From: Bacteroidota bacterium
Lineage (GTDB): Bacteria; Bacteroidota; Ignavibacteria; Ignavibacteriales; Ignavibacteriaceae
Length of the DNA stretch: 64,000 bases
Assembly: GCA_021813585.1 (NCBI GenBank)
Contig: JAKAJV010000015.1
Location: forward strand, 1 to 64,000
Reading direction: 5' to 3'
Shown: positions 1,232 through 64,000 of the stretch, piece by piece
How positions within the stretch are numbered: position 1 is the stretch's first letter
Layout: every line of letters begins with the position of its first letter
Made by a program: the position numbers and the translations under genes
Notes under the pieces: model-generated
Database searches by the model: none
What the model was told of the DNA's origin: nothing
The model's input: the letters and a program-made list of their open reading frames with translations, nothing else

Positions 1232-1757
1232 TTTCTCATCTTAAAATATTTTTATTTCAGCCGTATATTTTTCAACCAAACATAAGTATTGGGATGCTAA
1301 TAATAAAGTGAGTAATTTCATATCGGAAAAATTTTCTAGCCTTTGTAGAGTTATTTGGCAAAGACAGTGGCGATTAACAAAAGCCGGCACTTGCTGTTAT
1401 TTAAGTAATATAGTATTATTAGCAAAGAAAGATGAGGATTTTGTTAAATAAATCGAATAAATTTTTAAGAATATTTTTTCTATCTATAGATTAAATTATT
1501 CCCCGCTTGGCCGGGTAAAGTGAATATAAGATCCAAATACTTTATTTGATTATTTATAGTTTTCAATTTTTAGCTTATTTTTGTGTGTAGAATCAATAGG
1601 TCAAAATGCTTTTAATGGTATGTATAAAGTAGAGAGAGCCATTAGAAAAATAAAGAAAAATTTAATTCATTCGACTATAATAAAACACGCAGATTGTTTT
1701 TTATAATGAGGGAAATTATAATAAAGCAGACGGAAGTTGAGACTAGGGCAGAAATTG
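1232..1757. other. Non-coding spacer between membrane protein and tRNA cluster
   Basis: About 525 bp of AT-rich sequence with no convincing gene, promoter or repeat. A short open stretch near 1600-1705 on the plus strand could be a gene remnant, but I could not match it to any family. Confidence 0.5.
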
Positions 1758-1784
1758 AAAAAGCCCGATTGTTTAGCCGGGCTT
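1758..1784 (-). terminator. Rho-independent terminator of the tRNA-Lys transcript
   Basis: On the minus strand a 7-bp stem AAGCCCG/CGGGCTT with a 10-base loop is followed by a run of T. It lies immediately downstream of the tRNA-Lys and its two damaged copies, so it should end that transcript. Confidence 0.75.
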
Positions 1785-1787
1785 CGG

Positions 1788-1859
1788 TGAGCGCGGGTGG
1801 GCTCGAACCACCGACTCTCCCGATTAAATCGGGATGCTCTACCGGGCTGAATTGTACTT
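1788..1859 (-). pseudogene. tRNA-like pseudogene, distal copy
   Basis: Keeps the 3' acceptor strand, T-arm, variable region and anticodon arm of the neighbouring tRNA-Lys, but the 5' acceptor strand and D-arm are replaced by unrelated sequence, so the acceptor stem cannot pair. The anticodon loop reads ATTTAAT, i.e. anticodon TTA, which would pair with the stop codon UAA. It is one unit of a 99-bp tandem array starting at 1787, 1886 and 1985. Confidence 0.7.
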
Positions 1860-1886
1860 GTTTACAAGTTTTAATGTTTGATTTAG

Positions 1887-1958
1887 TGAGCGCGGGTGGG
1901 CTCGAACCACCGACCCTCCCGATTAAATCGGGATGCTCTACCGGGCTGAATTGTACTT
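1887..1958 (-). pseudogene. tRNA-like pseudogene, middle copy
   Basis: Same structure as the distal copy and differs from it at one position over the 99-bp unit. The 5' acceptor half is missing, and the anticodon arm again gives TTA in place of the Lys TTT. Both copies are presumably co-transcribed with the intact tRNA and left as trailer RNA. Confidence 0.7.
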
Positions 1959-1985
1959 GTTTACAAGTTTTAATGTTTGATTTAG

Positions 1986-2057
1986 TGAGCGCGGGTGGGC
2001 TCGAACCACCGACCCTCTGCTTAAAAGGCAGATGCTCTACCCCTGAGCTACGCGCCC
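1986..2057 (-). tRNA. tRNA-Lys (anticodon TTT)
   Basis: 72-nt cloverleaf without encoded CCA. Acceptor GGGCGCG pairs with CGCGCTC (one G-U), discriminator A; D-arm GCTC/GAGC; anticodon stem TCTGC/GCAGA around loop CTTTTAA, giving anticodon TTT; T-loop TTCGAGC. It reads AAA/AAG. The two damaged copies lie directly downstream in the same orientation, before a terminator. Confidence 0.93.
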
Positions 2058-2139
2058 GTTTTTTAGAGGTTCAAATATATGGAAGATCGAATTTTATTCC
2101 AAATAGATATTCCTTCAATTAATAAATAAACATAAAAGT

Positions 2140-3510
2140 ATGATGCAGAAAAATTCTAAGATTCTTGTTTGCGACGATGACGAAACATTATGTTATTTGC
2201 TTAAGGAACAGCTTTTGGAAGAGGGCTTCTCGGTAGATACGGTGTACGACGGAAAGTTTGCCATTGAAAATATCAAGAGAAAGAATTACGATCTTCTTCT
2301 GTTGGACCTTAATATGCGGGAAGTTCAAGGCGAAGAGGTGCTGAAATTTGTTACCGAATATAACTCTTCTATACAGGTGGTAATTCTCTCCGCGCAGTCC
2401 GAAATGAGAAAAGCGATTGATTGTATTAAGCAGGGCGCTTACGATTTTGTAACCAAGCCGTACAACTTTGAAGAATTACTTTTAACGGTAAACCGTTCCC
2501 TTGAGCATAAAGAGCTAATTGTTAAGACGGCGATTCTTTCCGAACAGGTAGATAAAAAGCTTCAAACCAGGATTATAGGAAACAGCAAGGAGCTTCAAAA
2601 GGTTATTAACCTCGCAAACAAATCGGCTATGTCCGATTCAAATATTCTGATTGAAGGCGAGACCGGAACCGGGAAAGAATTAATGGCGGAATATATTCAT
2701 AAGCATTCTGCCAGAAGCGATATGCCTTTCGTAGTTATCAACTGTGCGTCTCTGCCCGATCAATTAATCGAGAGCGAGCTGTTCGGCCACGAGAAAGGCG
2801 CGTTTACCGATGCAAAATCTACAAAGCAGGGCTTGGTAGAAATTGCTCACGGCGGAACTTTGTTCTTAGATGAAATTGGAGAGCTAAGCCTTGCGCTCCA
2901 GCCCAAACTGCTGCGCTTCTTGGAAAACGGAGAATACAGAAGAATAGGCGGGGTTACCAATCTAACTTCCAACGTTAGAGTAATAGGAGCGACGAACAGA
3001 AATCTTTTGGAAGAGACAGACAATAAAAATTTCAGAAGGGACCTTCTCTTTCGTCTTAATGTAATTACTTTAACTATACCTCCGTTGCGCGATAGAAAAG
3101 AAGATATCCTTCTGCTCGCGAATCATTTCCTGGAAACCAAGTCTCCCATAAGATCGCCCAAAAGGCTTTCGGCAGATGCCGAAAAGGTACTGTTCAGTTA
3201 TAACTTCCCGGGCAATATAAGGGAACTAGAACACATTATAGAGAGAGCGCTTATTTTTGCCGAGGGAGACTTCATTGAATCTGAGGATTTAAATTTGCCT
3301 CTTGAAAATTCAAAAGACTCCAGGAAGAAATCGCATTCCATATTCGACGAGGGCGAAGATATATTAAGCTTTTCCGAGCTTGAAAAAAAGTACATAGAGA
3401 AAGTATTAAGGTACTATGATTGGGACAGAGGGGAGACTGCAAGCAAGCTGGGAATAAGCGCCAAGACGTTGTATACTAAAATTAAAAAATATGCCATTAA
3501 ACAAGGATAG
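2140..3510 (+). CDS. NtrC-family sigma-54 activator (REC-AAA+-HTH)
   Basis: 456-residue cytoplasmic response regulator that opens sigma-54 promoters. Receiver domain 1-120 with acidic pocket CDDDE, phosphoacceptor D56 and K106; AAA+ domain about 145-380 with Walker A GETGTGKE (173-180), sigma-54 contact loop GAFTDA (220-225, G to D at the fifth position of the usual GAFTGA) and Walker B LFLDEIGE (241-248); C-terminal Fis-type HTH (ETASKLGISAKTLYTKIK). The next gene, 18 bp downstream, is a hybrid histidine kinase, its likely partner. The pilin-like cassettes with a sigma-54-like promoter at about 26.8 kb are plausible targets. Two ATG codons start the gene; the first is used here. Confidence 0.94.
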   Translation: MMQKNSKILVCDDDETLCYLLKEQLLEEGFSVDTVYDGKFAIENIKRKNYDLLLLDLNMREVQGEEVLKFVTEYNSSIQVVILSAQSEMRKAIDCIKQGAYDFVTKPYNFEELLLTVNRSLEHKELIVKTAILSEQVDKKLQTRIIGNSKELQKVINLANKSAMSDSNILIEGETGTGKELMAEYIHKHSARSDMPFVVINCASLPDQLIESELFGHEKGAFTDAKSTKQGLVEIAHGGTLFLDEIGELSLALQPKLLRFLENGEYRRIGGVTNLTSNVRVIGATNRNLLEETDNKNFRRDLLFRLNVITLTIPPLRDRKEDILLLANHFLETKSPIRSPKRLSADAEKVLFSYNFPGNIRELEHIIERALIFAEGDFIESEDLNLPLENSKDSRKKSHSIFDEGEDILSFSELEKKYIEKVLRYYDWDRGETASKLGISAKTLYTKIKKYAIKQG

Positions 3511-3528
3511 AATTCCCCGGCGGGCGGT

Positions 3529-5499
3529 ATGACTATTAAAAGAATTCTGGATAGCCTTTCTAATATTGAGGGCAACCCTTATGCGGTTGCAGACAAAAGT
3601 CTGAAAATAATATGGTATAATAAAAGCTTTAAGAATTATTTCCGCACTAAGAGAATAAACGGCGTATCAATACTAAAGTTGTTCAACCTTTCCTTAGCCG
3701 AAGAAATTTTACCGGCAAAAAAGAAGACGCGCGCAATTCCTTTTCCAGATGAAAAATTTATTTTGAAAACAACCAGACTTCTTTTCAATTACAAAACGGA
3801 CGGATATCTGCTCTATATAGAAAAAGAAGCCGATGCACAGTTAGAACAGGCGGACCAAAAAGAACAAACAGTAAAAAACCAGCAGTTTGCAGGAGAGCTG
3901 CGCCAGATTTTAACTCTTATGGCCAAGGAAAAATCTTTATTAAACCTTGCCGAAGAGATACTGATAAGATGCACCGAAATAGACAACAGTAAATTTGGTA
4001 TTTTATTGCTTAACGCCGAAAATAAAAAGTACGAATACATCTTTTACGATCCGCAAGAAAAGCTGGTAAATAAGGAAGAGATTAAGAGAGAAATAGAGAG
4101 TAACTTCAGCTTTATTTATAAATGGCTGAATGTAAACAAGCGGTCTTTGATTATTAAAAATAAGCATGAGAACCTTGGCTACAGCCTCTCCAAAGCGCTG
4201 GATACCGAGGCTGCACTGATAACCCCGTGCTTCTTCGAAGATAATCTTCTGGCTTCCGTAATAATCGGCAAGGAAGAAGGCTTTGCCGAAACTTCCGAAA
4301 TTAGCAACACAGAACAATTCGCCGCTCTGCTGGCGTTTGCAATTAACAGTATTAGAACGAGGGAACTGAATGACGCACTGGAAGCGAGATTATTGCAGGC
4401 ACAAAAGCTAGAGACAATCGGAAAGCTGAGCAGCGGAATGGCGCACGACTTCAGCAACCTTTTATCCAGCATCTTCGGCAGCCTAAATCTTCTGAAGAAA
4501 AGGGTGCCCGAAAGAGAGGATATTTACAGGCTGCTGGATAATATTGAAAACAGCTCGATAAGAGCCAAGGATTTAACAAAAGGCTTGTTATCGTTTGGCA
4601 AACCCACTCCCAAAAGAAAAGAATTAATTAAGCCGAACCTCCTGCTTTCCGAAATAGAAAAAGTAATTACTCAAACCTTTCCCTTAAACATTGGTTTCGA
4701 GTACGAGGTAGATGAAAATTTAAACAACATACTCGGCAACGGAACGGAAATTTACCAGGTTCTGTTAAACCTTTGCGTAAACGCGAAGGAATCAATTGAA
4801 GGCCGGGGAAAAATTACTCTTATCTCCAAGAACAGGACAATTAACGAATCGAACATTATAAATTATCCGCTGCTGGCAAAGGGAAATTACGTTTGGTTCT
4901 CCGTTATAGATACCGGCTCCGGTATAAAGGAAGAATATCTTTCCAGAATCTTCGATCCGTATTTTTCAACCAAAGACCGCCAGACCGGCTCCGGCTCGGG
5001 ACTGGGATTATATGTAACATACGGTATAATAAAAGCCCACAACGGCCACATAGACGTTTCGAGCGTTCCGGGTAAGGGAACAACTTTCGACGTCTTTATA
5101 CCTGCGTATGAGCCTACCGCTGCAAAAAAAATAATACCTGCCGAAAAAATTATTCTTCTTGCGGACGACGAGATTATGCTGCGGGATCTACTTGCCGAAC
5201 TGCTGGAGTCTTACGGCTATAATGTTATAAAGGTAAGCACCGGGACGGAGGTGTTGAAAGTTCTTATCGAAGAAATAAAAGTTGATCTTGTAATTATAGA
5301 CTATAATATGCCGGGCATGAACGGGCTCGACTGTATCCGCCAAATAAGAGGCCTGGAATTTAAGCTTCCCATTATTCTTTCATCGGGAAGCCTTTCTCTT
5401 CAATCCAACTTTGATTTTAAGAGCATGGGAATAAGCGACCTGCTGAACAAGCCGTATGAATTCGAAACCATGCTTGAGACAATACAGAGGCTAATCTGA
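3529..5499 (+). CDS. Hybrid sensor histidine kinase (GAF-HisKA-HATPase-REC)
   Basis: 656 residues, no membrane segment, so a soluble sensor. A PAS-like segment lies at about 1-95 and a GAF-like domain at about 125-280. The NtrB-type H-box GMAHDFSNLL carries H306. The ATPase domain has an N-box (NLCVNAKES), G1 box (DTGSGI) and G2 box (GSGSGLGLYV). A C-terminal receiver (about 540-655) has ADDE and phosphoacceptor D591. It probably phosphorylates the NtrC-type regulator directly upstream; the attached receiver may act as a phosphate sink. Its end overlaps the convergent gene at 5491-6162 by 9 bp. Confidence 0.93.
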   Translation: MTIKRILDSLSNIEGNPYAVADKSLKIIWYNKSFKNYFRTKRINGVSILKLFNLSLAEEILPAKKKTRAIPFPDEKFILKTTRLLFNYKTDGYLLYIEKEADAQLEQADQKEQTVKNQQFAGELRQILTLMAKEKSLLNLAEEILIRCTEIDNSKFGILLLNAENKKYEYIFYDPQEKLVNKEEIKREIESNFSFIYKWLNVNKRSLIIKNKHENLGYSLSKALDTEAALITPCFFEDNLLASVIIGKEEGFAETSEISNTEQFAALLAFAINSIRTRELNDALEARLLQAQKLETIGKLSSGMAHDFSNLLSSIFGSLNLLKKRVPEREDIYRLLDNIENSSIRAKDLTKGLLSFGKPTPKRKELIKPNLLLSEIEKVITQTFPLNIGFEYEVDENLNNILGNGTEIYQVLLNLCVNAKESIEGRGKITLISKNRTINESNIINYPLLAKGNYVWFSVIDTGSGIKEEYLSRIFDPYFSTKDRQTGSGSGLGLYVTYGIIKAHNGHIDVSSVPGKGTTFDVFIPAYEPTAAKKIIPAEKIILLADDEIMLRDLLAELLESYGYNVIKVSTGTEVLKVLIEEIKVDLVIIDYNMPGMNGLDCIRQIRGLEFKLPIILSSGSLSLQSNFDFKSMGISDLLNKPYEFETMLETIQRLI

Positions 5500-6162
5500 A
5501 GCGTTGTTATCAAACTCAACCATCTTGATGTTTTTTATGTAGTCCGAAAAAATCGGCTTCTTAATTGAGTTCAATTGGTTAAGTACGTCGTTTATTTCTT
5601 TAATTGCGGTTTCAATATACGAAAGCCGTTTTAGTATTGCTTCCTTCGATACTTCCTCTTTCTTCAGCTCGCGCTTAATTGCGGCCGAGGAAAGGCTCAT
5701 CAAAGTTAACGGTTGTTTTATTTTATGGTTGGTTGTTACAACCGTTGCGGCAAAAGTATTCCTTTGTTCTGCTTCCAGAAGCAGCTTGTGTGTTTCGGAA
5801 AGCTTGAGCGCCGAGTTTACCCTTGCCAAAAGCTCGATGCGGTTGAACGGCTTTTTTATATAATCGAAGGCGCCTGCTTCCAAGCCTTCCTTCGTATCTT
5901 CCGCACCGGATTTTGCAGTTACGAGAATGATGGGTATATTTAACGTTGCTTCGTTCTTTGCCAGCATCTTGCAAACTTCTATTCCCGACATTTCGGGCAT
6001 CATTACGTCCAGCAAGATCAAATCCGGATTTTCATTCAATGTTTTTTCTATACAAGATTTTCCGTCGTATGCGGTTATTACTTCGTACCCTTCATGCTCA
6101 AGTCTGTCCTGAAGCATAAACACATTCTCCGGCAAGTCGTCTACTACAAGTATCTTTTTCAT
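5491..6162 (-). CDS. Response regulator with C-terminal HisKA-like helix and no ATPase domain
   Basis: 223 residues. Receiver domain 1-122 with VVDD, phosphoacceptor D52 and a K-K-P-F motif at 103-106. The C-terminal 85 residues are helical and carry a histidine-kinase-like box (TNHKIKQPL, H146) resembling a dimerisation/phosphotransfer helix, but no HATPase domain follows. It could work as a phosphotransfer dimer between the kinase at 6164-9700 and a regulator. Last gene of the minus-strand pilus/signalling operon, 1 bp from the kinase gene. Confidence 0.85.
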   Translation of the reverse strand: MKKILVVDDLPENVFMLQDRLEHEGYEVITAYDGKSCIEKTLNENPDLILLDVMMPEMSGIEVCKMLAKNEATLNIPIILVTAKSGAEDTKEGLEAGAFDYIKKPFNRIELLARVNSALKLSETHKLLLEAEQRNTFAATVVTTNHKIKQPLTLMSLSSAAIKRELKKEEVSKEAILKRLSYIETAIKEINDVLNQLNSIKKPIFSDYIKNIKMVEFDNNASD

Positions 6163-6163
6163 T

Positions 6164-9100
6164 TTATATTATTTTAAATTTTGAAAACAGTCTTTCTATC
6201 TTAAATGCCATTACACCGGAATTAACGGGCTTTGCAATGTAGTCGTCAAATCCGTGTTTAAATATTACTTCCTTGTCTTCTAGCATGGCTTTGGCGGTAA
6301 CGGCAAAGATTGGAATGTTGGCCCACCGGCTGTTCTTCTTTATTGCCTTTATCGTTTGGAAGCCGTCCATCTCGGGCATCATTATATCCAGCAAAATCAA
6401 GTCCGGAATTTTTTGCTCTAATACCTTTATGCATTCTATGCCGTTTTTAGCCAAGGTTGTTTTACAGCTGCATGCTTGAACTATTTCGCTGATTGTAAAA
6501 AGGGTGTCGGGGTCGTCGTCCACAATTAGGACTTCTCCCTGGTAAATTTTGTTATCTTCATTAGGCGGCTGTTCCTGAACGACGCCGTTGCCGGGAACTT
6601 CCGTCTTTCTTTCTTCGGAAGAAGTATAGACTTCTTCCATCCTTATTATGTCCCTTACAATTTTCAGCACGTCTAGCGGATGCCCCTTGGATTTGACGGT
6701 AATTTCTTCGACGATGTTGTTAAGAGAATTTCTTTCCTCTTCGGTAAGGTCTTTCGCTGTGCTGATGATAATCGGAATGTGCTTCGTATCGTTGTTGGAT
6801 TTTAATCTGTACGAGAGGGTAATTCCGTCAACGTTCGGCATCATTAAATCGAGTATAATCAGGTCCGGCTGTACTTCCAGAATTTTGCTGAAGGCCAGCT
6901 CGCTGTCCTTTATGTATTCGATTCTCACCTTGTCGTCTCTAAAGGCGTTTTTAAATTTCTCAAACTCCTGCTCATCGTCGTCTACCAGTACAATCTTTTC
7001 CACCTTTTTTTGCGCAAGGCTTTCAAGCTTCCGGAAGGCGGAAAACAGATTTTCGGGCGCGATGGGCTTAATAAAATATTCAAACGCGCCCAGGCCGTAG
7101 CCTATATTTTTATCGCCCATTATTGAAATTAAAATAACGGGAATATCCTTGGTCGAAGGATTCTCCTTCAGTTCTTTCAGTATCGTCCAGCCGTCTTTTT
7201 CGGGCATCATAACATCCAGGGTAATTGCGAAAGGCTGCATTGTCTTTGCCTTCTGAATGCCTTCGTCGCCGGAGGAAGAGTATTCCACACCGTAGCCTTT
7301 TGATATGAGGTACTGTCCTATCGTGTACCTTACTTCTGCATCGTCGTCTATAATTAAAATAGGATTCTTTCTGTTCTTTATAAGAGTCTCAACATTTACC
7401 TTTACATTCTGTTTGTACTCATTTACCTTAACATAATTTAAAGGCACCAAAAAAGTGAATGTCGATCCTTTGCCGGGCGTGCTTTCAACGCTTATGCTGC
7501 CTTTAAGAAGGTCGGCTATTTTTTTACATATTGCCAGCCCCAACCCCGTGCCGCTGTATTTTCTGGTCGTAGTGCCGTCAATTTGCCTGAACTCTTCAAA
7601 GATAACGCTCTGGTACTGTTCGGAAATTCCTATGCCGGTATCCACAACGTCGAACTGCAGCATCTTGTTTTCGACGGAAGAAACCCGAAGCTCTACGAAT
7701 CCTTCATCTGTAAATTTAATTGCATTGCCGAGCAGGTTTATCAACACCTGCGTAATCTTACCGCGGTCGGCGTTAATAATTATATTGGTATTTATCTTTC
7801 TAACTATGCCGAAAGAAATTTCTTTCTGCTGAAGCAGAGGAAGGACGGAGTTTTCAACTTCGCGCAGCAGCTCATCCAGCTGGAGGTCTTCTTCGTGGAC
7901 TTCCATTTTTCCGGCCTCAATCTTGGAGAGATCGAGTATGTCGTTAATAAGGTTCATCAGCCTCTTACCGCTCTTAAGTACAACCTCTATTCTTTCGCGG
8001 TTCTTTCCCTGCAGGGTTTTATCTTCCAGAATTAATTCAGACAGCCCCAGTATCGAATTCATCGGTGTTCTAAGCTCGTGAGACATGCTGGCCAGGAAGT
8101 GGGACTTAAGCCTAGTTGCTTCTTCCGCTTTTTCTTTTTGTACTTCCAGCTCGGCGGCTTTTTCCTTTAGTTGATTGTGGAGCTCCAGCAGCGTTTCGTT
8201 CTGCTTTCTAATCTGGATGTTCTGTTTCTGGTAATCTTCATTCAGCTTCTTCAGCTCTGCAACAAGGTCTTCAAGCCGGCTTAATGCAATTGCGTTGGTA
8301 ATACCAATTGCAAGCTGTTCTTTAATTTTTGTTAGATAGTCCCTTACCTGCCCGTCGGGCTTGTTAATTGATCCGAGCTCAAGAACGGCAATTACCTTGT
8401 TGTTATAAACTATTGGCTGGATCAATAAGTTTTTAATCTTAATGGAAAGCATTCCGGAAGATACGACCGGAAGATCATCTCCCGAGTTTATTTCAATTGT
8501 TTCCCGGTTATTAACCACAGCATCAAAGCTGTCGGGCTTAATGTTTAGAGAATAATCCTTACTTAACCCGTAGGTGCTGGCAGGCTTTAGGCTACCGTCC
8601 TCTACGGTATAGAGCACGCCGACGGTAAACCCGCATGTATATATAATTTTTTTAAGTGCGGCATCAGAGACTTCAACCAGGGTGGGATTGCGGTTAATAA
8701 GTGTTATGAATTCAGAGTATTCGTTCTTCGCCTTTTCGTTTTTCTCAAGCTCATCCAGCATAAGATTAAACGCCCCGGCTAGGTGTCCCAGTTCATCCTT
8801 GCTTTGAACTTTTATTTTGTTCTGGAAGTTCCCTTCCTTGGTTATTTTTGTAGCGTCGCTAAGCTTGGTAATCTGCTTCCTTATTTTGTCCGTAAAGAGC
8901 AGGGTAAGTATTAACGATAAGGATATGCCTGCAAAGCCGATTATTATAAGAAGGTATTTTATGCTGTTCCTTAAGTCGTTGGTTTCGCTTAAGCCGGTAA
9001 ATATAAGGAACCGGAAATCGCTTTCTTTCACATACTCGGAAGAAGGCTTGTAGATTGTCGCTATTATGTCTGAGGATTCCGTATTTAGCGAATAAATATC

Positions 9101-9700
9101 GTAGTTGTTTTTTGTAGAAAGCTCCCTGTACGCTTTATTCAATGCAAGAAGGTACCTCTGGTTTAGAGAAGCGTTGGAAATTTCTACCGCGGTCCCTTTC
9201 CAGATTAAGGCAATGTCGGCATTTATTTTTTTTGAAATATTATCAAGTAAGGAGCCGGAGATTATTCTGCCGAAATAATATTTTTTACCGCCGGGCAGCT
9301 GCTCGCTGCTGATAAGCGCGAAAGGATTGTTCTGTTCAAAATCTTGTATCGTAACGGCAGAGGCCGGAAGGTACACGTTGTTCTTTCCGGTTTTTTTTGT
9401 AATAACACCGGAAGTGCTGTCTTTGGTCTCCAGTATGAAGTCTATGTTCTTGGCATTTGCAAGCGAGTTGTCGAACTCTCGGTCTATTCCGTTCTCGGCA
9501 AGAAACCGGAACTCGTCCTCGGTATCCTGCATTAGGCCGCTGTATGTATAAATAAACTGGTTTGCAGAATTAAGCAGATATTTGGAATGCTGCGAAGATA
9601 GGACATTGTACATTATTGAGTAATATGCAACGGCGGAACTACCAAGTATTAAAGCGACAATGGCAAAATTTATAATTAAAATTCTTAAACTTATTTTCAT
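6164..9700 (-). CDS. Membrane hybrid histidine kinase with three receivers
   Basis: 1178 residues. TM1 about 8-30 and TM2 about 249-270 enclose a periplasmic sensor region of about 215 residues; then HAMP (about 271-325), GAF-like domain (about 345-480), coiled coil (about 480-530), HisKA with H541 in SHELRTPMNS, HATPase (about 600-770), and three receivers with D829, D951 and D1105. The middle receiver lacks the usual K-P switch motif (ITVKSKGHP). It lies downstream of the secretin and a CheY-like regulator, so it probably controls pilus-linked behaviour. The stimulus is unknown. Gene order and 3-bp spacing show it is co-transcribed with the motor genes. Confidence 0.93.
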   Translation of the reverse strand: MKISLRILIINFAIVALILGSSAVAYYSIMYNVLSSQHSKYLLNSANQFIYTYSGLMQDTEDEFRFLAENGIDREFDNSLANAKNIDFILETKDSTSGVITKKTGKNNVYLPASAVTIQDFEQNNPFALISSEQLPGGKKYYFGRIISGSLLDNISKKINADIALIWKGTAVEISNASLNQRYLLALNKAYRELSTKNNYDIYSLNTESSDIIATIYKPSSEYVKESDFRFLIFTGLSETNDLRNSIKYLLIIIGFAGISLSLILTLLFTDKIRKQITKLSDATKITKEGNFQNKIKVQSKDELGHLAGAFNLMLDELEKNEKAKNEYSEFITLINRNPTLVEVSDAALKKIIYTCGFTVGVLYTVEDGSLKPASTYGLSKDYSLNIKPDSFDAVVNNRETIEINSGDDLPVVSSGMLSIKIKNLLIQPIVYNNKVIAVLELGSINKPDGQVRDYLTKIKEQLAIGITNAIALSRLEDLVAELKKLNEDYQKQNIQIRKQNETLLELHNQLKEKAAELEVQKEKAEEATRLKSHFLASMSHELRTPMNSILGLSELILEDKTLQGKNRERIEVVLKSGKRLMNLINDILDLSKIEAGKMEVHEEDLQLDELLREVENSVLPLLQQKEISFGIVRKINTNIIINADRGKITQVLINLLGNAIKFTDEGFVELRVSSVENKMLQFDVVDTGIGISEQYQSVIFEEFRQIDGTTTRKYSGTGLGLAICKKIADLLKGSISVESTPGKGSTFTFLVPLNYVKVNEYKQNVKVNVETLIKNRKNPILIIDDDAEVRYTIGQYLISKGYGVEYSSSGDEGIQKAKTMQPFAITLDVMMPEKDGWTILKELKENPSTKDIPVILISIMGDKNIGYGLGAFEYFIKPIAPENLFSAFRKLESLAQKKVEKIVLVDDDEQEFEKFKNAFRDDKVRIEYIKDSELAFSKILEVQPDLIILDLMMPNVDGITLSYRLKSNNDTKHIPIIISTAKDLTEEERNSLNNIVEEITVKSKGHPLDVLKIVRDIIRMEEVYTSSEERKTEVPGNGVVQEQPPNEDNKIYQGEVLIVDDDPDTLFTISEIVQACSCKTTLAKNGIECIKVLEQKIPDLILLDIMMPEMDGFQTIKAIKKNSRWANIPIFAVTAKAMLEDKEVIFKHGFDDYIAKPVNSGVMAFKIERLFSKFKII

Positions 9701-45238: not shown

Positions 45239-45287
45239 TTCTTTGCGTCTTAGCGTCATTGCGGTGAAGAATGAAGGAGATGATAAT

Positions 45288-57055: not shown

Positions 57056-57253
57056 ATGGCTGAACTAAAAACAAGAGAAAAAATATTTTATTCTAAGGAT
57101 GGGAAGCCTGAGAGCGTCCTTTTAGATTATGAGGTTTACCTGGAAATGCTTGAACTAATCGAGGATAACGAATGCATCAAAATAATTGAAGAAAGAAAAA
57201 ATGACAAAAACCTCTCAGAGGATGAATTCCTTAAAAAAGTAAAAGTGAGTTAA
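57056..57253 (+). CDS. Phd/RelB-type antitoxin, partner truncated
   Basis: 65 residues: KTREKIFYSKDGKPESVLLDYEVYLEMLELIED..., the Phd/YefM-like layout with a C-terminal helix for toxin binding. ATG start. The toxin that follows (TAATG overlap) is truncated, so this is an antitoxin without a working partner. Confidence 0.75.
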   Translation: MAELKTREKIFYSKDGKPESVLLDYEVYLEMLELIEDNECIKIIEERKNDKNLSEDEFLKKVKVS

Positions 57254-57402: not shown

Positions 57403-57615
57403 ATGCAGAAGTACGAAGTAATTATCTATTGGAGTGAAGAGGACCAGGCGTATATTTCCGAAGTGCGTGAGCTTCCCGGCTGTATGGCTGACGGTAATGA
57501 TTATAATGAGGCGCTTCAAAATGTACAGACCGTTATAAATGAATGGATTGAAACAGCGAAGCAGTTGGGAAGGGAAATACCAAAGCCTAAAGGAAGAAAA
57601 CTGCAGTACGCATAG
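57403..57615 (+). CDS. HicB-like antitoxin, solitary
   Basis: 70 residues: KYEVIIYWSEEDQAYISEVRELPGCMADGNDYNEAL, the compact HicB fold without a DNA-binding tail. No hicA gene is next to it. Confidence 0.87.
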   Translation: MQKYEVIIYWSEEDQAYISEVRELPGCMADGNDYNEALQNVQTVINEWIETAKQLGREIPKPKGRKLQYA

Positions 57616-58084: not shown

Positions 58085-58122
58085 TTGACTTACCTAGTTT
58101 GATATCGTATATTTGTATCAAA
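58085..58122 (+). promoter_or_regulatory. vapBC promoter and operator
   Basis: TTGACT (58085-58090), 17 bp, TATATT (58108-58113). An inverted repeat TTTGATA-N11-TATCAAA (58098-58122) covers the -10 element, as expected for autorepression. Confidence 0.65.
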
Positions 58123-58134
58123 AAAAGTAAGAAT

Positions 58135-58365
58135 ATGGAGACATCAGTAATAACAACCAAGGGACAGGTAGTAATTCCGGTTAAGATACGAAAGAAGTAC
58201 GGGATGAAAGGCGGCACTAAGGTCGCTTTCATAGAAAAAGACGGCAGAGTAATTATGCAGCCGCTTGATAAGGATTATTTTGAAAACCTTGCCGGCATTT
58301 TAGATGAAAAAGGCAAAATGCTTAAATCTTTAATGGAAGATAAAAAGAAAGAAAGGGAACTTTGA
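58135..58365 (+). CDS. vapB: AbrB/VapB-type antitoxin
   Basis: 76 residues from the ATG at 58135 (METSVITTKGQVVIPVKIRK); an in-frame ATG at 58099 falls inside the promoter and is rejected. SpoVT/AbrB domain at 1-47 and a charged C-terminal tail. Stop overlaps the toxin start. Confidence 0.93.
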   Translation: METSVITTKGQVVIPVKIRKKYGMKGGTKVAFIEKDGRVIMQPLDKDYFENLAGILDEKGKMLKSLMEDKKKEREL

Positions 58366-58760
58366 GAAACATAGTATTGGACAGCTATGCAGTCATTTCT
58401 TATTTAAATAAGGAAGAGGGTTATTCAAAGGTTGCCGAAGTTTTCACTGAATGCGTCGCAGATAATAAAAAAGCTTTTTTATGCGTTGTAAATCTTGGCG
58501 AAGTATATTACCATGCATTAAGGGTGGGCGGCGAAACTAAAGCTAACTTAGCACTGGAAGCTGTAAGAATATTACCAATAGAAATAGTAGAAGCAAACTT
58601 TCATCTCACAATAAGTGCGGCAGAGTATAAAGCCTTCCATAAAATGTCGTATGCTGATGCTTACGCCGCCGCTTTGGCAAAGACCAAAAAAGCTGTTCTA
58701 GTTACTGGTGATAAAGAGTTTAAGGCTTTAGAGAAGGAAATAAAAATTAATTGGATATGA
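58362..58760 (+). CDS. vapC: VapC-type PIN-domain toxin
   Basis: 132 residues, TTG start overlapping the antitoxin stop by 4 bp. PIN residues D6 (VLDSYAVISYL), E47 (NLGEVYYHAL), D-x-x-x-A near 99 (SYADAYAAALA) and D116 (LVTGDKEF). Directly upstream of the AT-rich operon but on its own promoter. Confidence 0.93.
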   Translation: MRNIVLDSYAVISYLNKEEGYSKVAEVFTECVADNKKAFLCVVNLGEVYYHALRVGGETKANLALEAVRILPIEIVEANFHLTISAAEYKAFHKMSYADAYAAALAKTKKAVLVTGDKEFKALEKEIKINWI

Positions 58761-58779: not shown

Positions 58780-61278
58780 ATGGTGAAAGAAGTCGACGAT
58801 ATTGTTAAAGTTCTTGAGCATACTCCTTTTTATATGGGGAAAGAAGGGATGCTTCTGGAAAAAAATTCATCGCTTACAAAAGTTCCAATTAGTTTTATAA
58901 AATTTACAGTTAGATTTAGACATGTTATTGAAGTTTTCCATTTTAAATATCTATATGAATTATTAAATACAGATTATGATAGAGTTCTAACAATAAGGAA
59001 CTGTGGTGGAAAAAGTATATCAGATGCGCAAAGGGATATAATAAAATTTTTTGAAAGTGGAAGATTTTGTGAAGCCGAATCGAAAAATGACAATACTGAG
59101 AGTATAAAATCTAATCCTTTGTTAAAAGATATATTTACTATAGAGGAAAAGATAAAAATTCAAAAAGTTCTTAAGATTGATATTCATAATCTTTCTATAA
59201 ATTCCCACTCACATTTAGATAAATTCCTAGCATTCAATAATCAGATTAAAACTATTGGCGATTTATTAAATATTGAACAGAATTATTTTCATAATATTAA
59301 TACTGACAACGGCGTAAGAGAGCAACTAAATATAAGTACTTTAATTAAAAGATATCCTTATACAAAAATTCAATCACAAATACTTTTAAGTGAAATAAAA
59401 GAATTAGTACAAGGTTTATTAACTAAAAATGAACAAGAAATTATCATTGACTACACTAATGAAATAGTACCTTTATTAGATTTAATTGAGTATTTCCTAA
59501 ATAAACTTACTAGAAGAGATTTAGACATTATAATTAAAAGATGGGGTGGTAATGAAATTAAATCTCTTCAAGAAATAGCCAACAGATATGGACTTACTAG
59601 AGAAAGAATACGACAAATCTTAGATAGACTGATTTCTAAATTAAAACTGAGACTAAAACCCAATTTAAAATATTATAAAGAACAATTTTTATATATATTA
59701 ATATCTAGTCCCAACCCTATAACTCTTGAAAAGTTAGCGGAAAGGCCTCTAATAAGAAGTAAGTATAATAAAAATATTTACCTCGGATTGTTGTCTGAAA
59801 TTTTTGTTGATATTCCTTTCTATAATTTCATCCCCAAATCATTTGATAATTATTTAAATAGAAACAACAATGGAAATAATAGATCAGGTATACTTTATAA
59901 TAAATTATTACAATGTAATTTCCCATTTAAAACGATAACATTAGAGAATTTATTTGAACTGAATGATGTCAAGGATGTCATAGATAAACTGCTTATTTGT
60001 AAGATTGTAATGTTATCACGTAGATTTAGGATAATTCATCACGAAAAGGATTATTATATTATTAAACTTGGGAACTTACATGAAGTTACGATTAATATTT
60101 TAGAAGAAGATGAATGTCCTAAAAATTTAAATAATATTATTACAATAATTAAAAAATACTATTTAATAAATTACAAATACAACAGTAGGGCGTCAATTGT
60201 TTCAAACCTTAAACAGAACAAAAAAATAATACAACTTGATAGATACGTCTTTGGTTTAGAAAAGCATTTCAGCTATTCGAAAGAGCAATGGGGAAATATT
60301 TGCAACACTGTCAAAGAAATCATAAATAAATATCAAAGACAAACTAATGTTATAGAAATATTTCAGCACATTATAAATTTATTTCCAAAATTGAGATCAA
60401 AATATGAATTAGTTTATATAATTAGATCAGACCATGAAATTGTAGACCTAGGCTTTTTCAATTTTGGTTTACTCGATTTTAGTAACAAGGAAAGACTTAA
60501 AATAGTAGATGAAATAAAAAATATATTTTCTCAGAATTCATCTCCAAAACATTTTTCAGAAATTCAAAGAGAGATATCTGAAAAAAGGTTTTTACGAATA
60601 GAAGGAATGGGATGTATTTTAAATTCTCAAGAGTATTTAATTAATTATTCAGGCGGTTTTTTCGGGCTAAAAGGAAATCATTTCGACAATTTAGTTTATT
60701 TATCCCAAAACGAATTATATTTAACTAAACTCATTGATGATAAATTATTCCCAGAATCTACCATAAGACTTTTATTAGACTCTTTTGAAAATATTATTAC
60801 GTATGAAGGGCTAATAAATTTCATTAAACAAAGTCCTTCTTTAATATTAATTACTGACATTACCTTTGCTGAGGATTTTGTGATTTCTAAGAGGTGGTCT
60901 TTGATAAGAATTGTTCGATGCATTTTATATAATTCTAAAGAACCTATTTATTGGGATGAACTTTTGTGGATATTAAAAGATGTTGGATTAGACATAGATA
61001 ATAGTGAAAAATCTAAGATCAGAAATGATAAGTATATTAAGATCAATAATAATAAATTATCCTACCTTAATATTGAAATTCAATCAGAGGATTCGAAAGT
61101 CATTATTGATGAATGTTATAATTTACTATTAAATTCTTCGACAATGTGGACACTTGAAAGATTAAATTCTTTCATAAACTCGGAATTCATCGAAATAGAT
61201 TATGGCCAACTTGAATTCCTCTTAAATGACGATAGCAGATTTTTAGTTACAGAAAATAAAATTGTTACTATAAAATAA
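58780..61278 (+). CDS. RNAP alpha-CTD-like and sigma-4-like DNA-binding protein
   Basis: 832 residues, strongly AT-rich. Residues about 38-95 resemble the RNA polymerase alpha C-terminal helix-hairpin-helix domain (FTVRFRHVIEVFHFKYLYEL ... LTIRNCGGKSISD), perhaps again at 130-195. Residues 243-292 match sigma-70 region 4 (LQEIANRYGLTRERIRQILD). The rest (about 300-832) shows several winged-helix-like units (e.g. 302-345, 590-640, 720-770), of the HARE/RpoE type. First gene of a coupled four-gene operon. It could recognise DNA or regulate the operon; no catalytic residues are visible. Function unknown. Confidence 0.8.
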   Translation: MVKEVDDIVKVLEHTPFYMGKEGMLLEKNSSLTKVPISFIKFTVRFRHVIEVFHFKYLYELLNTDYDRVLTIRNCGGKSISDAQRDIIKFFESGRFCEAESKNDNTESIKSNPLLKDIFTIEEKIKIQKVLKIDIHNLSINSHSHLDKFLAFNNQIKTIGDLLNIEQNYFHNINTDNGVREQLNISTLIKRYPYTKIQSQILLSEIKELVQGLLTKNEQEIIIDYTNEIVPLLDLIEYFLNKLTRRDLDIIIKRWGGNEIKSLQEIANRYGLTRERIRQILDRLISKLKLRLKPNLKYYKEQFLYILISSPNPITLEKLAERPLIRSKYNKNIYLGLLSEIFVDIPFYNFIPKSFDNYLNRNNNGNNRSGILYNKLLQCNFPFKTITLENLFELNDVKDVIDKLLICKIVMLSRRFRIIHHEKDYYIIKLGNLHEVTINILEEDECPKNLNNIITIIKKYYLINYKYNSRASIVSNLKQNKKIIQLDRYVFGLEKHFSYSKEQWGNICNTVKEIINKYQRQTNVIEIFQHIINLFPKLRSKYELVYIIRSDHEIVDLGFFNFGLLDFSNKERLKIVDEIKNIFSQNSSPKHFSEIQREISEKRFLRIEGMGCILNSQEYLINYSGGFFGLKGNHFDNLVYLSQNELYLTKLIDDKLFPESTIRLLLDSFENIITYEGLINFIKQSPSLILITDITFAEDFVISKRWSLIRIVRCILYNSKEPIYWDELLWILKDVGLDIDNSEKSKIRNDKYIKINNNKLSYLNIEIQSEDSKVIIDECYNLLLNSSTMWTLERLNSFINSEFIEIDYGQLEFLLNDDSRFLVTENKIVTIK

Positions 61279-61868
61279 TGGACAGAATTACAAAGAAACA
61301 AAAAATATTATATGTAATCTACAAAATGAGTCTAGGTTCTATTAAAAATGTTAGATATGAAGATATATTAGTTGAATCGTTTAAATTGTTTCCAAAGGAA
61401 TTTCAAATTAGGTATTATCCCAAATATCCAGATACTGATACGATAAGAAGAAATTTATACCAATTGATTCCTGATGGATTCTTGAAAATTTCACAACGGA
61501 AATGTGTTCTAACTGACTTTGGTATTTCAAAAGGGAAAGAATTAAAAGAGCTTATAGAGGGAACTGAAATTAAAAAGGATGAACGAGTTGACTATATTAT
61601 GCAAAGAGAAATCAATCGTCTTCTATATCTTCAAGGGTTTAAAATGTTTATTAATAATAGGACAGACAAAATAATTGAAAGAGATTTTTATGAGTTTTAC
61701 AAGGTTACCGTTCGTACAAGAAATTTAGAAATTAAAGGAAATATTAGGACAATCGATCATTTTATTTCACATTATCTAAAAAAGGAGAAGGTGCTAGGCA
61801 AGCGCTTGGAAAAATATTCTAGTTTTCTTAAAAGTAAATTTGATAACTTGATTAAAGAGGAAAATTAA
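61278..61868 (+). CDS. Winged-helix protein of the AT-rich operon
   Basis: 196 residues; ATG overlaps the stop of the previous gene by 1 nt. The N-terminal 80 residues look like a winged helix (KILYVIYKM ... DTIRRNLYQLIPDGFLKIS ... VLTDFGISKG), the C-terminal half is helical and basic. No family name recognised. Tight coupling to the ATPase gene (0 bp) suggests the two proteins work together. Confidence 0.72.
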   Translation: MDRITKKQKILYVIYKMSLGSIKNVRYEDILVESFKLFPKEFQIRYYPKYPDTDTIRRNLYQLIPDGFLKISQRKCVLTDFGISKGKELKELIEGTEIKKDERVDYIMQREINRLLYLQGFKMFINNRTDKIIERDFYEFYKVTVRTRNLEIKGNIRTIDHFISHYLKKEKVLGKRLEKYSSFLKSKFDNLIKEEN

Positions 61869-63650
61869 ATGGATATTAAAGTAGAGCAACATAAAATAGA
61901 TGCAGCCGCAGTATTAGATTTATTGGAAAAAGAATTCAAATTTGATCACTCAAAAGGTATTGCTGAATTGATCAAAAACTCAGTTGATGCCTATAGTCTC
62001 GAAAGTACACCTGATGACCAACAGTATATTTTCATTTTATTAAAAACAGGTGCCAATAATGTAATAAAAACTATTGAAGTGGTAGATTTCGTTGGGATGA
62101 GTCATGTTAAAATTGATAAGGCTTTTAAAATTTGGTTTGATAAAAATGCTGCGAGAAGATTAAATGATGAAACATTAAAAGACGCAAAGGTATTAGGAGG
62201 ACATGGAAATGGCGGTAAATTTTATATGCGTGGAATGTTTAGAACTTCTAAAATAATAACCTATCGCGATGGTAGATTAAATTGTTTCGGTTTTAATGAA
62301 AAAAAAGAATATGGCTTTGATAGACAAATGGATAATATTAAAGTGCCAATTGAGGGGGCAATTGAATTGGCTGGTATAAACACAAATATTGGTCTGTTTG
62401 ATTTTACAAAGGATGCATTATTAAGATTGAAGAGATTTACTATAATTAGAGGAGAAAATCCAAAAAAAATTCATAAAACAAATAATATTCAGTCCTTGAT
62501 TGATAATCTAGTAATACACCCCCAGGTGCGCCGGATTATTCAGCGAAAAAAGATTTATATTATTCTCGGCAACAACTATAAACCGAAGCAGCTAATAATA
62601 CCTACATTATCTGCTAAAAAAGGATTTGAAGAAAACTTTAGATATAAATGTCCTGTAGAATTACTAATTGATAATGAAAAAATTATAATGTATAAAAATG
62701 TTCCGATAACACTTACCCTTTCTACGTCTGAGGAACCATTAAGAAGAAATAAATATCGAGGAATGAACAGCATTGACTTTCTAAGTGAGGTTGGTGTCAT
62801 TGCAAATTATGAAATTGATGAACTAGGTAGCTTTAGAACTTTTATGTATAGTGAATTTATTTATGGAGAATGTTTTGCTCAAGTTATGGAAGATGATGAC
62901 TATGTTACTAATGATAGAAGTAAATTCGTTCCAAGTTTAAAGACTAAAGCACTGTTAAATTGGATTCGGGAATGCGTAGAAGAATTATGTAACAAGATGG
63001 AGGAAGCTACTCGAAAGGAAAGCAAGAAAAGAAATTTGTTACAAACATCCGAGTTTAATAAACTACTAAATAAATGGAAGAATCGATTCTTACAAAAATT
63101 GCTAAGGGAAAAACTAGCCGGGATCGGTAATTTTGGGATTGAAGGTAATGAAAATTCGGAATGGAATATTTTAACAAATAAAAAAAATTCTACTGATACA
63201 AAAGATTCTAAACAAAAGTCCGGGACATCAGGTGGAAGCCAGAAAAAAAGAGCAAGTGGATTTCCCGATGTCAAAATTTCAGGCAATGATCCTGACCCAT
63301 TTTTAGATCCTCCTTCTACCGAACCTTTCCAAGTAGATGCTAGAGAATCAGCCATTTATCAAAGACCAATTGATTTTAAAAATGGTATATATTGGATCAA
63401 TACGTCTAAAAAATTAGCAAGTATGATATTAGAAAAAGAAGGAGATAAGTCAGTAAGATGGAGGGACTATTTGTTTCAGAGATATATTGATATTATTGTA
63501 AAAGAAGCTGTATATGCAATAGGGAAAACCGATGTTATTCTGTCATCCGACTTTTTAAGTAATGAAATTGATCGTGTTACTTCAGATGTTTTGGATTTAG
63601 CCGCTGATGACCTTGAAGCATTTTTATTTGAATCCGAGTATAAAATATAA
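61869..63650 (+). CDS. GHKL (Hsp90/MORC-like) ATPase
   Basis: 593 residues. Bergerat ATP-binding fold: N-box with E33 and N37 (GIAELIKNSVDAY), G1 with D73 and G76 (VVDFVGMS) and glycine lid GGHGNGGK (110-117). The middle (about 200-370) may be the S5-like transducer; a basic, coiled-coil stretch follows (about 375-430), a Ser/Lys-rich linker (about 440-465) and a C-terminal conserved-looking block (485-590). MORC and MutL-type ATPases clamp DNA; the neighbours with DNA-binding domains agree with such a role. Confidence 0.85.
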   Translation: MDIKVEQHKIDAAAVLDLLEKEFKFDHSKGIAELIKNSVDAYSLESTPDDQQYIFILLKTGANNVIKTIEVVDFVGMSHVKIDKAFKIWFDKNAARRLNDETLKDAKVLGGHGNGGKFYMRGMFRTSKIITYRDGRLNCFGFNEKKEYGFDRQMDNIKVPIEGAIELAGINTNIGLFDFTKDALLRLKRFTIIRGENPKKIHKTNNIQSLIDNLVIHPQVRRIIQRKKIYIILGNNYKPKQLIIPTLSAKKGFEENFRYKCPVELLIDNEKIIMYKNVPITLTLSTSEEPLRRNKYRGMNSIDFLSEVGVIANYEIDELGSFRTFMYSEFIYGECFAQVMEDDDYVTNDRSKFVPSLKTKALLNWIRECVEELCNKMEEATRKESKKRNLLQTSEFNKLLNKWKNRFLQKLLREKLAGIGNFGIEGNENSEWNILTNKKNSTDTKDSKQKSGTSGGSQKKRASGFPDVKISGNDPDPFLDPPSTEPFQVDARESAIYQRPIDFKNGIYWINTSKKLASMILEKEGDKSVRWRDYLFQRYIDIIVKEAVYAIGKTDVILSSDFLSNEIDRVTSDVLDLAADDLEAFLFESEYKI

Positions 63651-63658
63651 TTTTGTTT

Positions 63659-64000
63659 ATGAAATCATTTCTCCTAAAAACCACATTTAAAACCGATGAC
63701 ATAATCTCGTACACAGAATTAGTTGCGGCAGAACAAATCAATCTTCAAAAGGGAATGAACTTTAATGTTAAGTCGGAGTATTCCGTACTTCTAATGTCTT
63801 TAAGAAAAAATGCACCTTACGCTAATCAAGTTGATGAGAAAACGGGAACTCTTATTTATGAAGGACATGATGTCCCAAGTAATTTAGCAGACGATCCAAA
63901 GAAAGTAGATCAACCTTTACTAACACCCAAAGGTTCTTTAACAGAAAACGGAAAATTCTTTACTGCTGCTCAATCGTATAAAATGAAATTGATAGAACCT
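63659..64000 (+). CDS. Probable SRA-like/HNH endonuclease, N-terminal part
   Basis: 114 codons, open to the end of the window, so partial. The pattern SVLLMSLRKNAPYANQV, TGTLIYEGHDVPS and DQPLLTPKGSLTENGKFF resembles the SRA/YDG-like N-terminal domain of a group of HNH endonucleases that read modified DNA. The nuclease domain would lie beyond base 64000. Starts 8 bp after the ATPase gene. Confidence 0.6.
   Translation, partial: MKSFLLKTTFKTDDIISYTELVAAEQINLQKGMNFNVKSEYSVLLMSLRKNAPYANQVDEKTGTLIYEGHDVPSNLADDPKKVDQPLLTPKGSLTENGKFFTAAQSYKMKLIEP

Follow-up and report, generated by a model that had tools for sequence, protein, structure and literature searches.

The window, by which we mean the whole 64,000-nucleotide stretch analysed here (positions 1-64000 of a 190,563-base contig), carries five adjacent genes that we consider somewhat probable to form a single operon, in which a VapBC toxin-antitoxin pair heads a nuclease-less, paraMORC-type defence cassette, SIG-WH-GHKL. 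Behind the toxin gene lie ORFs at 58780-61278 (SIG), 61278-61868 (WH) and 61869-63650 (GHKL), followed by a fourth ORF from an ATG at 63659; SIG and WH overlap by 1 nt, WH and GHKL abut (0 bp), and 8 bp lie between GHKL and the fourth ORF. Both the coordinates and the tight spacing given for these four genes in an earlier note on this DNA were reproduced, as was their AT-richness, with GC contents of 0.257, 0.274, 0.315 and 0.327 for ORFs 1 to 4 versus 0.382 for the whole window. The SIG and WH genes of relatives are also low in GC (0.25-0.30 versus 0.35-0.37 for their own loci), which indicates that low GC characterises the family, or reflects where it came from, and is not peculiar to the window copy. 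The operon boundary drawn around these four ORFs needs revision: three of them are conserved together, but the fourth falls outside the set, and the true additional partners, AbrB and PIN, lie upstream. That upstream region had been described as a toxin-antitoxin graveyard, which is only partly right, as the AbrB-PIN pair (58135-58760) is intact and conserved with the system. Farther upstream of VapBC, at 57056-57253 and 57403-57615, are small antitoxin-like genes (by eye Phd/YefM-like and HicB-like) without evident toxin partners.

That the conserved unit consists of the five genes AbrB, PIN, SIG, WH and GHKL is well supported. Among the 164 genomes of the order that were searched for GHKL, the family is found in six, and in none of the 12 other congeners of the window genome. 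The order AbrB-PIN-SIG-WH-GHKL is shared by the window and loci L006, L014 and L048, which represent four genera of one order, and at all four the downstream genes overlap or abut. L006 belongs to a genome recorded as Melioribacter sp. (G176; Melioribacteraceae, Ignavibacteriota), of the same order as the window genome. A fifth genus (G581) has the system split, with AbrB-PIN-SIG on L088 and GHKL on L015, whose linkage is presumed. The earlier suggestion to look for the same gene order in other genomes was therefore borne out for three of the four genes, in at least four genera plus the split fifth. A genome_contigs scan returned one relative, and all SIG-WH-GHKL loci found lie within one order. 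The sixth GHKL-positive genome (G492, locus L016) has AbrB-PIN-GHKL(763 aa)-WH(229 aa)-N6/N4 methyltransferase-intact HNH. The AbrB, PIN and HNH of the window are closest to those of L016 (76%, 70% and 72% identity). Its SIG, WH and GHKL, by contrast, resemble those of the other loci and not L016. By these identities, the central part of the window locus looks to have been swapped, leaving a nuclease end behind.

The head of the operon comprises an AbrB/MazE-type antitoxin gene (VapB; 58135-58365, forward strand; Pfam MazE_antitoxin, E 2.8e-6) and, overlapping it, the gene for a PIN-domain RNase toxin (VapC; 58362-58760, forward strand; Pfam PIN, E 7e-14, and alignment). The catalytic residues D7, E47, D99 and D117 of the window PIN are intact, and a VapBC pair is recognised by such a combination: a PIN protein bearing acidic catalytic residues, encoded just after an antitoxin gene that overlaps its own. 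An antitoxin gene immediately precedes PIN at each of the five loci compared, and at most of those in the wider set. About 50 bp before the antitoxin start is a promoter/operator-like element, TTGACTTAC (58085-58093, forward strand). This core or its variant TAATACTTG is found 49-70 bp 5' of the antitoxin in 33 of 35 related loci, which share kinship and so are not independent, where shuffles expect 0.25. Near the core, TTAC/GTAA repeats occur at about twice expectation; together, core and repeats would fit an autoregulated AbrB-type promoter. A stricter -35/-10 pattern has no match in the window, and the promoter-like element is therefore claimed by its position and conservation only. The gap between PIN and SIG is 7-28 bp in the window, L006, L014 and L048, a spacing into which a terminator or a second promoter would hardly fit. 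The five genes are probably co-transcribed, and an AbrB-controlled promoter 5' of the antitoxin may drive the whole operon.

What follows the toxin gene is variable. The PIN subfamily of the window occurs in 40 of the 164 genomes, nearly always as one copy. Its downstream side was read at 37 loci (one further locus has no PIN frame), of which five were too short, leaving 32 readable loci. At 16 of these 32, with cargo classified partly by eye and motif, PIN is followed by defence-type genes or relics, mostly GHKL-based, and at 15 of the 16 the cargo starts -10 to +100 bp from the PIN stop on the same strand. Six are SIG-type (five SIG cassettes and the SIG remnants of L100). The rest comprise a restriction-modification set (L016); a methyltransferase with WH-like and GHKL-like genes (L082 and L097); a C5 methyltransferase-GHKL-HNH_2 array (L085); a GHKL of the PADLOC candidate family PDC-M33A (L092); an HNH behind the remnant of an L092-like gene (L087); a Schlafen-type helicase, PDC-S41 (L101), and a similar helicase at 1.1 kb (L099); RhuM-Fic PDC-S23 (L090); and a remnant plus a RhuM-like gene (L084). 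At L082 and L097 the methyltransferase and PIN genes share 10 bases, the WH-like part is the N-terminal portion of a 227-aa protein, and the GHKL-like N-box belongs to a protein of 792 or 796 aa with no Pfam match. Intact GHKL or GHKL-like genes are present in 11 loci, including L106, whose further protein with a GHKL-type N-box was scored as unknown in the 16/32 count. The L092 operon (1270-5512) also encodes, beside its PDC-M33A-like GHKL, a protein that by eye is ParB-like and two of 257 and 236 aa that have no match in Pfam; it is possibly a further undescribed defence set. As a control we took 20 other PIN genes of these genomes, roughly by score order where the contig was long enough. 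None carries defence cargo and their neighbours are ordinary; in this control set a ClpB-like protein and a secreted protein matched PADLOC profiles, which we discarded as cross-hits. The difference between 16/32 and 0/20 gives a Fisher p of 1e-4, and without the SIG-type loci (10/26 versus 0/20) p is 0.002, values that are optimistic because the loci are related.

The cargo does not track the toxin tree. Grouping the SIG-linked PINs as one clade was rejected (AU p 5e-70), with six changes needed on the PIN tree, and the four-member clade that contains the window PIN carries three cargo types. Cassette-free sister loci with the same downstream flank are found in G176 (L081 and L083, where PIN is followed by truA), G483 (L109) and G581 (L093), and scars of lost cargo are present at L109 and L087. 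L109 retains the first SIG codons, so the cassette was lost there and not absent from the start; it is the only locus at which the direction of cargo change can be read. Since empty loci retain VapBC, the toxin does not need the cassette. We put forward, tentatively, a broader reading of these loci as quite possible: VapBC with its own operator-promoter would be a chassis, from which swapped, mostly GHKL-based defence cassettes would gain a promoter and a toxin guard, and SIG-WH-GHKL would be one of them, a nuclease-less paraMORC defence with an RNA-polymerase-like recognition protein. The PIN RNase could serve as an addiction guard, or as an abortive back-up, should the antitoxin or the operon be lost or silenced.

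Alternatively, the cassette could be a defence unit and VapBC an independent marker of a hotspot, with no regulatory or guard coupling between them and with islands collecting both. The persistence of the pair at the roughly half of PIN loci that have no defence cargo would be expected in that case, as would the uncoupled PIN and cargo phylogenies. The close, same-strand placement of cargo behind PIN in 15 of 16 cases (-10 to +100 bp), seen at none of the 20 other PINs, and the presence of one conserved promoter-like element before the AbrB-PIN pair both speak for coupling, and we regard an uncoupled hotspot as rather unlikely.

We turn to the cassette itself. SIG (58780-61278, forward strand) has two alpha-CTD-like domains, a sigma region 4 helix-turn-helix (HTH) and winged-helix-like repeats, as read from Pfam and hhalign. 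Sigma70_r4 (E 1e-10) and RNA_pol_A_CTD (E 2e-5) both match the window SIG above the Pfam cutoff, in agreement with the earlier proposal that alpha-CTD-like and sigma-4 parts are joined in one protein. Sigma70_r4 is present in all full SIG copies, RNA_pol_A_CTD is found twice in the SIG of L006, L014, L048 and L088, and a PDB sequence search with SIG returned sigma factors. Comparison within SIG by hhalign gave 97% for aCTD1-aCTD2 and 73% for w2-w3. The winged-helix-like repeats are suggested by this repeat-repeat similarity, by a HARE-HTH match below cutoff in the L048 SIG (21.4 bits versus 25.9; weaker in L014), and by the helix/strand pattern of a poor model. AlphaFold models from two-sequence alignments were unusable (pLDDT 36 for SIG and 31 for GHKL), and the domain readings of both proteins accordingly rest on sequence. 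A SIG-related sigma-region-4 protein of about 760 aa is encoded among housekeeping genes at L027 (7791-10070) and L028 (8968-11244). These loci come from two genomes of a single genus and have the same gene surroundings; the protein is possibly a SIG family member with a chromosomal location.

WH (61278-61868, forward strand; about 200 aa) is a probable winged-helix protein and a family of its own. Its adjacency in relatives points to a dedicated GHKL partner: wherever an intact locus of this family was read, a WH homologue adjoins GHKL. The window WH has no Pfam match and the L031 homologue a weak one to HTH_45; PDB sequence searches gave one chance-level match for WH and none for GHKL. GHKL (61869-63650, forward strand) is a paraMORC-like ATPase with a conserved C-terminal extension. 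Its HATPase_c_3 match (E 3.9e-5) is just below the Pfam cutoff (24.1 versus 25 bits), and its ATP-binding motifs (N-box ELIKNSVDA, DFVGM, GGHGNGGK) are intact and kept in relatives, so that the earlier identification of gene 3 as a GHKL ATPase holds. A regular-expression search found no MORC S5-domain motif (GhXhhpXXRhl) in the window GHKL or six others. Distant WH-GHKL pairs on IMG/VR contigs (L031-L035) and on an Ensifer plasmid have DNA methyltransferases nearby: L031 has WH-GHKL followed by a C5 methyltransferase-Vsr fusion, and L032-L035 have N6/N4 methyltransferases. This methyltransferase/nuclease association, seen in the homologues at L016 and L031-L035, is absent at SIG-type loci. The occurrence of WH-GHKL near DNA methyltransferases on phage-like contigs and the Ensifer plasmid suggests that the pair is a paraMORC-type, restriction-linked module; in the window operon SIG occupies the methyltransferase's place and no recognisable nuclease is left. 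The IMG/VR search found GHKL relatives and no SIG, and plasmid and phage collections yielded one distant GHKL (Ensifer) and no SIG or WH, these two being searched in plasmids.

From this make-up we infer a defence activity that would proceed as follows. SIG, with its multiple HTH and alpha/sigma-4-like parts, would be the DNA-recognition subunit in the stead of a methyltransferase and HNH/Vsr nucleases, binding invading DNA or its promoters. WH would form the bridge, and a GHKL dimer could close into an ATP-driven clamp, which would block or remodel the bound DNA and leave it uncut. The same domains, and the housekeeping-linked sigma-4/winged-helix protein of L027 and L028, would also suit a transcriptional or chromosome-organising regulator, in which SIG contacts RNA polymerase and GHKL remodels chromosomal DNA. 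Such a role is improbable given the patchy presence of GHKL (6/164 genomes and 0/12 other congeners), the low GC, the defence-type alternatives in the same slot and the restriction-linked relatives.

The fourth ORF (63659-64000 in the window, forward strand, with its frame ending at contig 64270) is an HNH restriction nuclease relic, as alignment with the 72% identical, intact L016 HNH reveals. The frame ends as ...CQCVKCGSTENLHFD-stop, just short of where the L016 homologue has its catalytic His; that homologue reads on as ...NLHYDHDLPFSKGG... into the catalytic H-N-H. The N-terminal domain is intact and the first zinc knuckle is kept; the stop codon lies in a short insertion, and unrelated sequence has taken the place of the original 3' part. 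Readthrough into a working nuclease was considered and rejected, since no frame contains the remaining HNH positions or the second zinc pair. HNH is absent after GHKL in L006, L014, L015 and L048. Gene 4 is a dead relic and not part of the conserved cassette. The earlier note had called it an SRA-like/HNH nuclease, expected an HNH motif beyond position 64000, and supposed that the set cuts invading DNA. No SRA domain was detected in gene 4 or its intact homologue, reading on met the stop and the lost tail, and with gene 4 dead and outside the conserved set there is no recognisable nuclease to do the cutting, nor another recognisable effector in the operon. Just 3' of the relic is an MntA-like nucleotidyltransferase and HEPN-like pair (L002:8591-8938 and 9069-9332; contig 64590-65331), by eye another toxin-antitoxin pair. 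An intergenic short repeat of the type TTTGCGTCNTTGCGG is found at contig 65452-65473, at window positions 45250 and 48243, and in more copies elsewhere in the genome.

The relic, the orphan antitoxins nearby and the scars and relics in several relatives raise the question of whether the whole locus is a decaying restriction-modification leftover, its methyltransferase and nuclease gone and the rest drifting. We think this very unlikely: SIG, WH, GHKL and PIN are full-length with motifs kept in several genera, and conservation of a full-length cassette at 32-61% identity to the window copies needs selection. Least credible of all is a system of four genes that recognises modified DNA and cleaves it with its own nuclease, to which the 8-bp spacing behind GHKL and the intact N-terminal domain of gene 4 lend some appeal, but whose nuclease has lost its catalytic half, is missing from the other loci, and has its intact homologues in a methyltransferase system (L016) or standing alone (L087).

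If the reading of VapBC as chassis and guard is true, toxin-antitoxin pairs of unclear purpose would be tied to swappable defence cassettes, two things usually treated apart. One toxin-antitoxin family would be the fixed promoter, and possibly the guard, of many defence systems, which makes a testable case. The cassette would also offer an entry to bacterial relatives of the eukaryotic MORC ATPases that appear to work without a nuclease.

Among known systems, PADLOC-DB 2.0.0 returned only partial SIG matches, to MzaA (E 0.0019) and PDC-S63 (E 0.024); in that database nothing beyond a weak sigma-region-4 cross-match speaks against the earlier view that this is no named anti-phage system. SIG shares sigma-region-4 with MZA (MzaABCDE), a system that has a GHKL/MutL-type ATPase partner. 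Membership in MZA was rejected, the MzaA match scoring 30.9 bits against a cutoff of 800 over the sigma-4 stretch only, with no MzaB-E among the neighbours (by eye); two better MzaA matches in the same genome are below cutoff and of ordinary sigma factor length. Bacterial proteins combining alpha-CTD with sigma-type HARE-HTH parts were reportedly described by Aravind and Iyer in 2012. SIG resembles them in its two alpha-CTD-like domains, sigma-4 HTH and weak HARE-HTH match, but differs in that this match is sub-cutoff and its further winged-helix-like repeats are only suggested. A Type II restriction-modification system was likewise rejected, as the operon has no methyltransferase and the HNH is truncated.

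The paraMORC GHKL families occur in restriction-modification-linked contexts (Iyer, Abhiman, Aravind 2008, PMC2292703). Like paraMORC and prokaryotic MORC proteins, the window GHKL has conserved motifs and a C-terminal extension, and its WH-GHKL relatives adjoin DNA methyltransferases and HNH and Vsr nucleases (L016, L031, L032). Unlike paraMORC restriction-modification operons, the window operon is without methyltransferase, helicase and intact nuclease and has SIG and VapBC; unlike MORC proper, its GHKL lacks the MORC-specific motif. Because GHKL-WH pairs beside methyltransferases fit these families, the operon is not quite unprecedented, and the candidate defence operon first proposed survives as probable in its three conserved genes, without its fourth. 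For the coupling to a toxin there are also precedents. In the RptR/DarTG/type I restriction-modification island a toxin-antitoxin pair is coupled with a defence system, and in the RptR case a repressor site made up of repeats stands at the head of the defence operon (PMC12255303); the CreTA toxin-antitoxin guards CRISPR-Cas (PMC9458426); and endoRNases act as back-up effectors beside defence systems (PMC10853773). These cases are precedents for the window system and not tests of it. As in the RptR/DarTG island and CreTA, a toxin-antitoxin pair appears coupled with defence; unlike in either, VapBC itself heads the operon and stays while the defence cassettes behind it vary.
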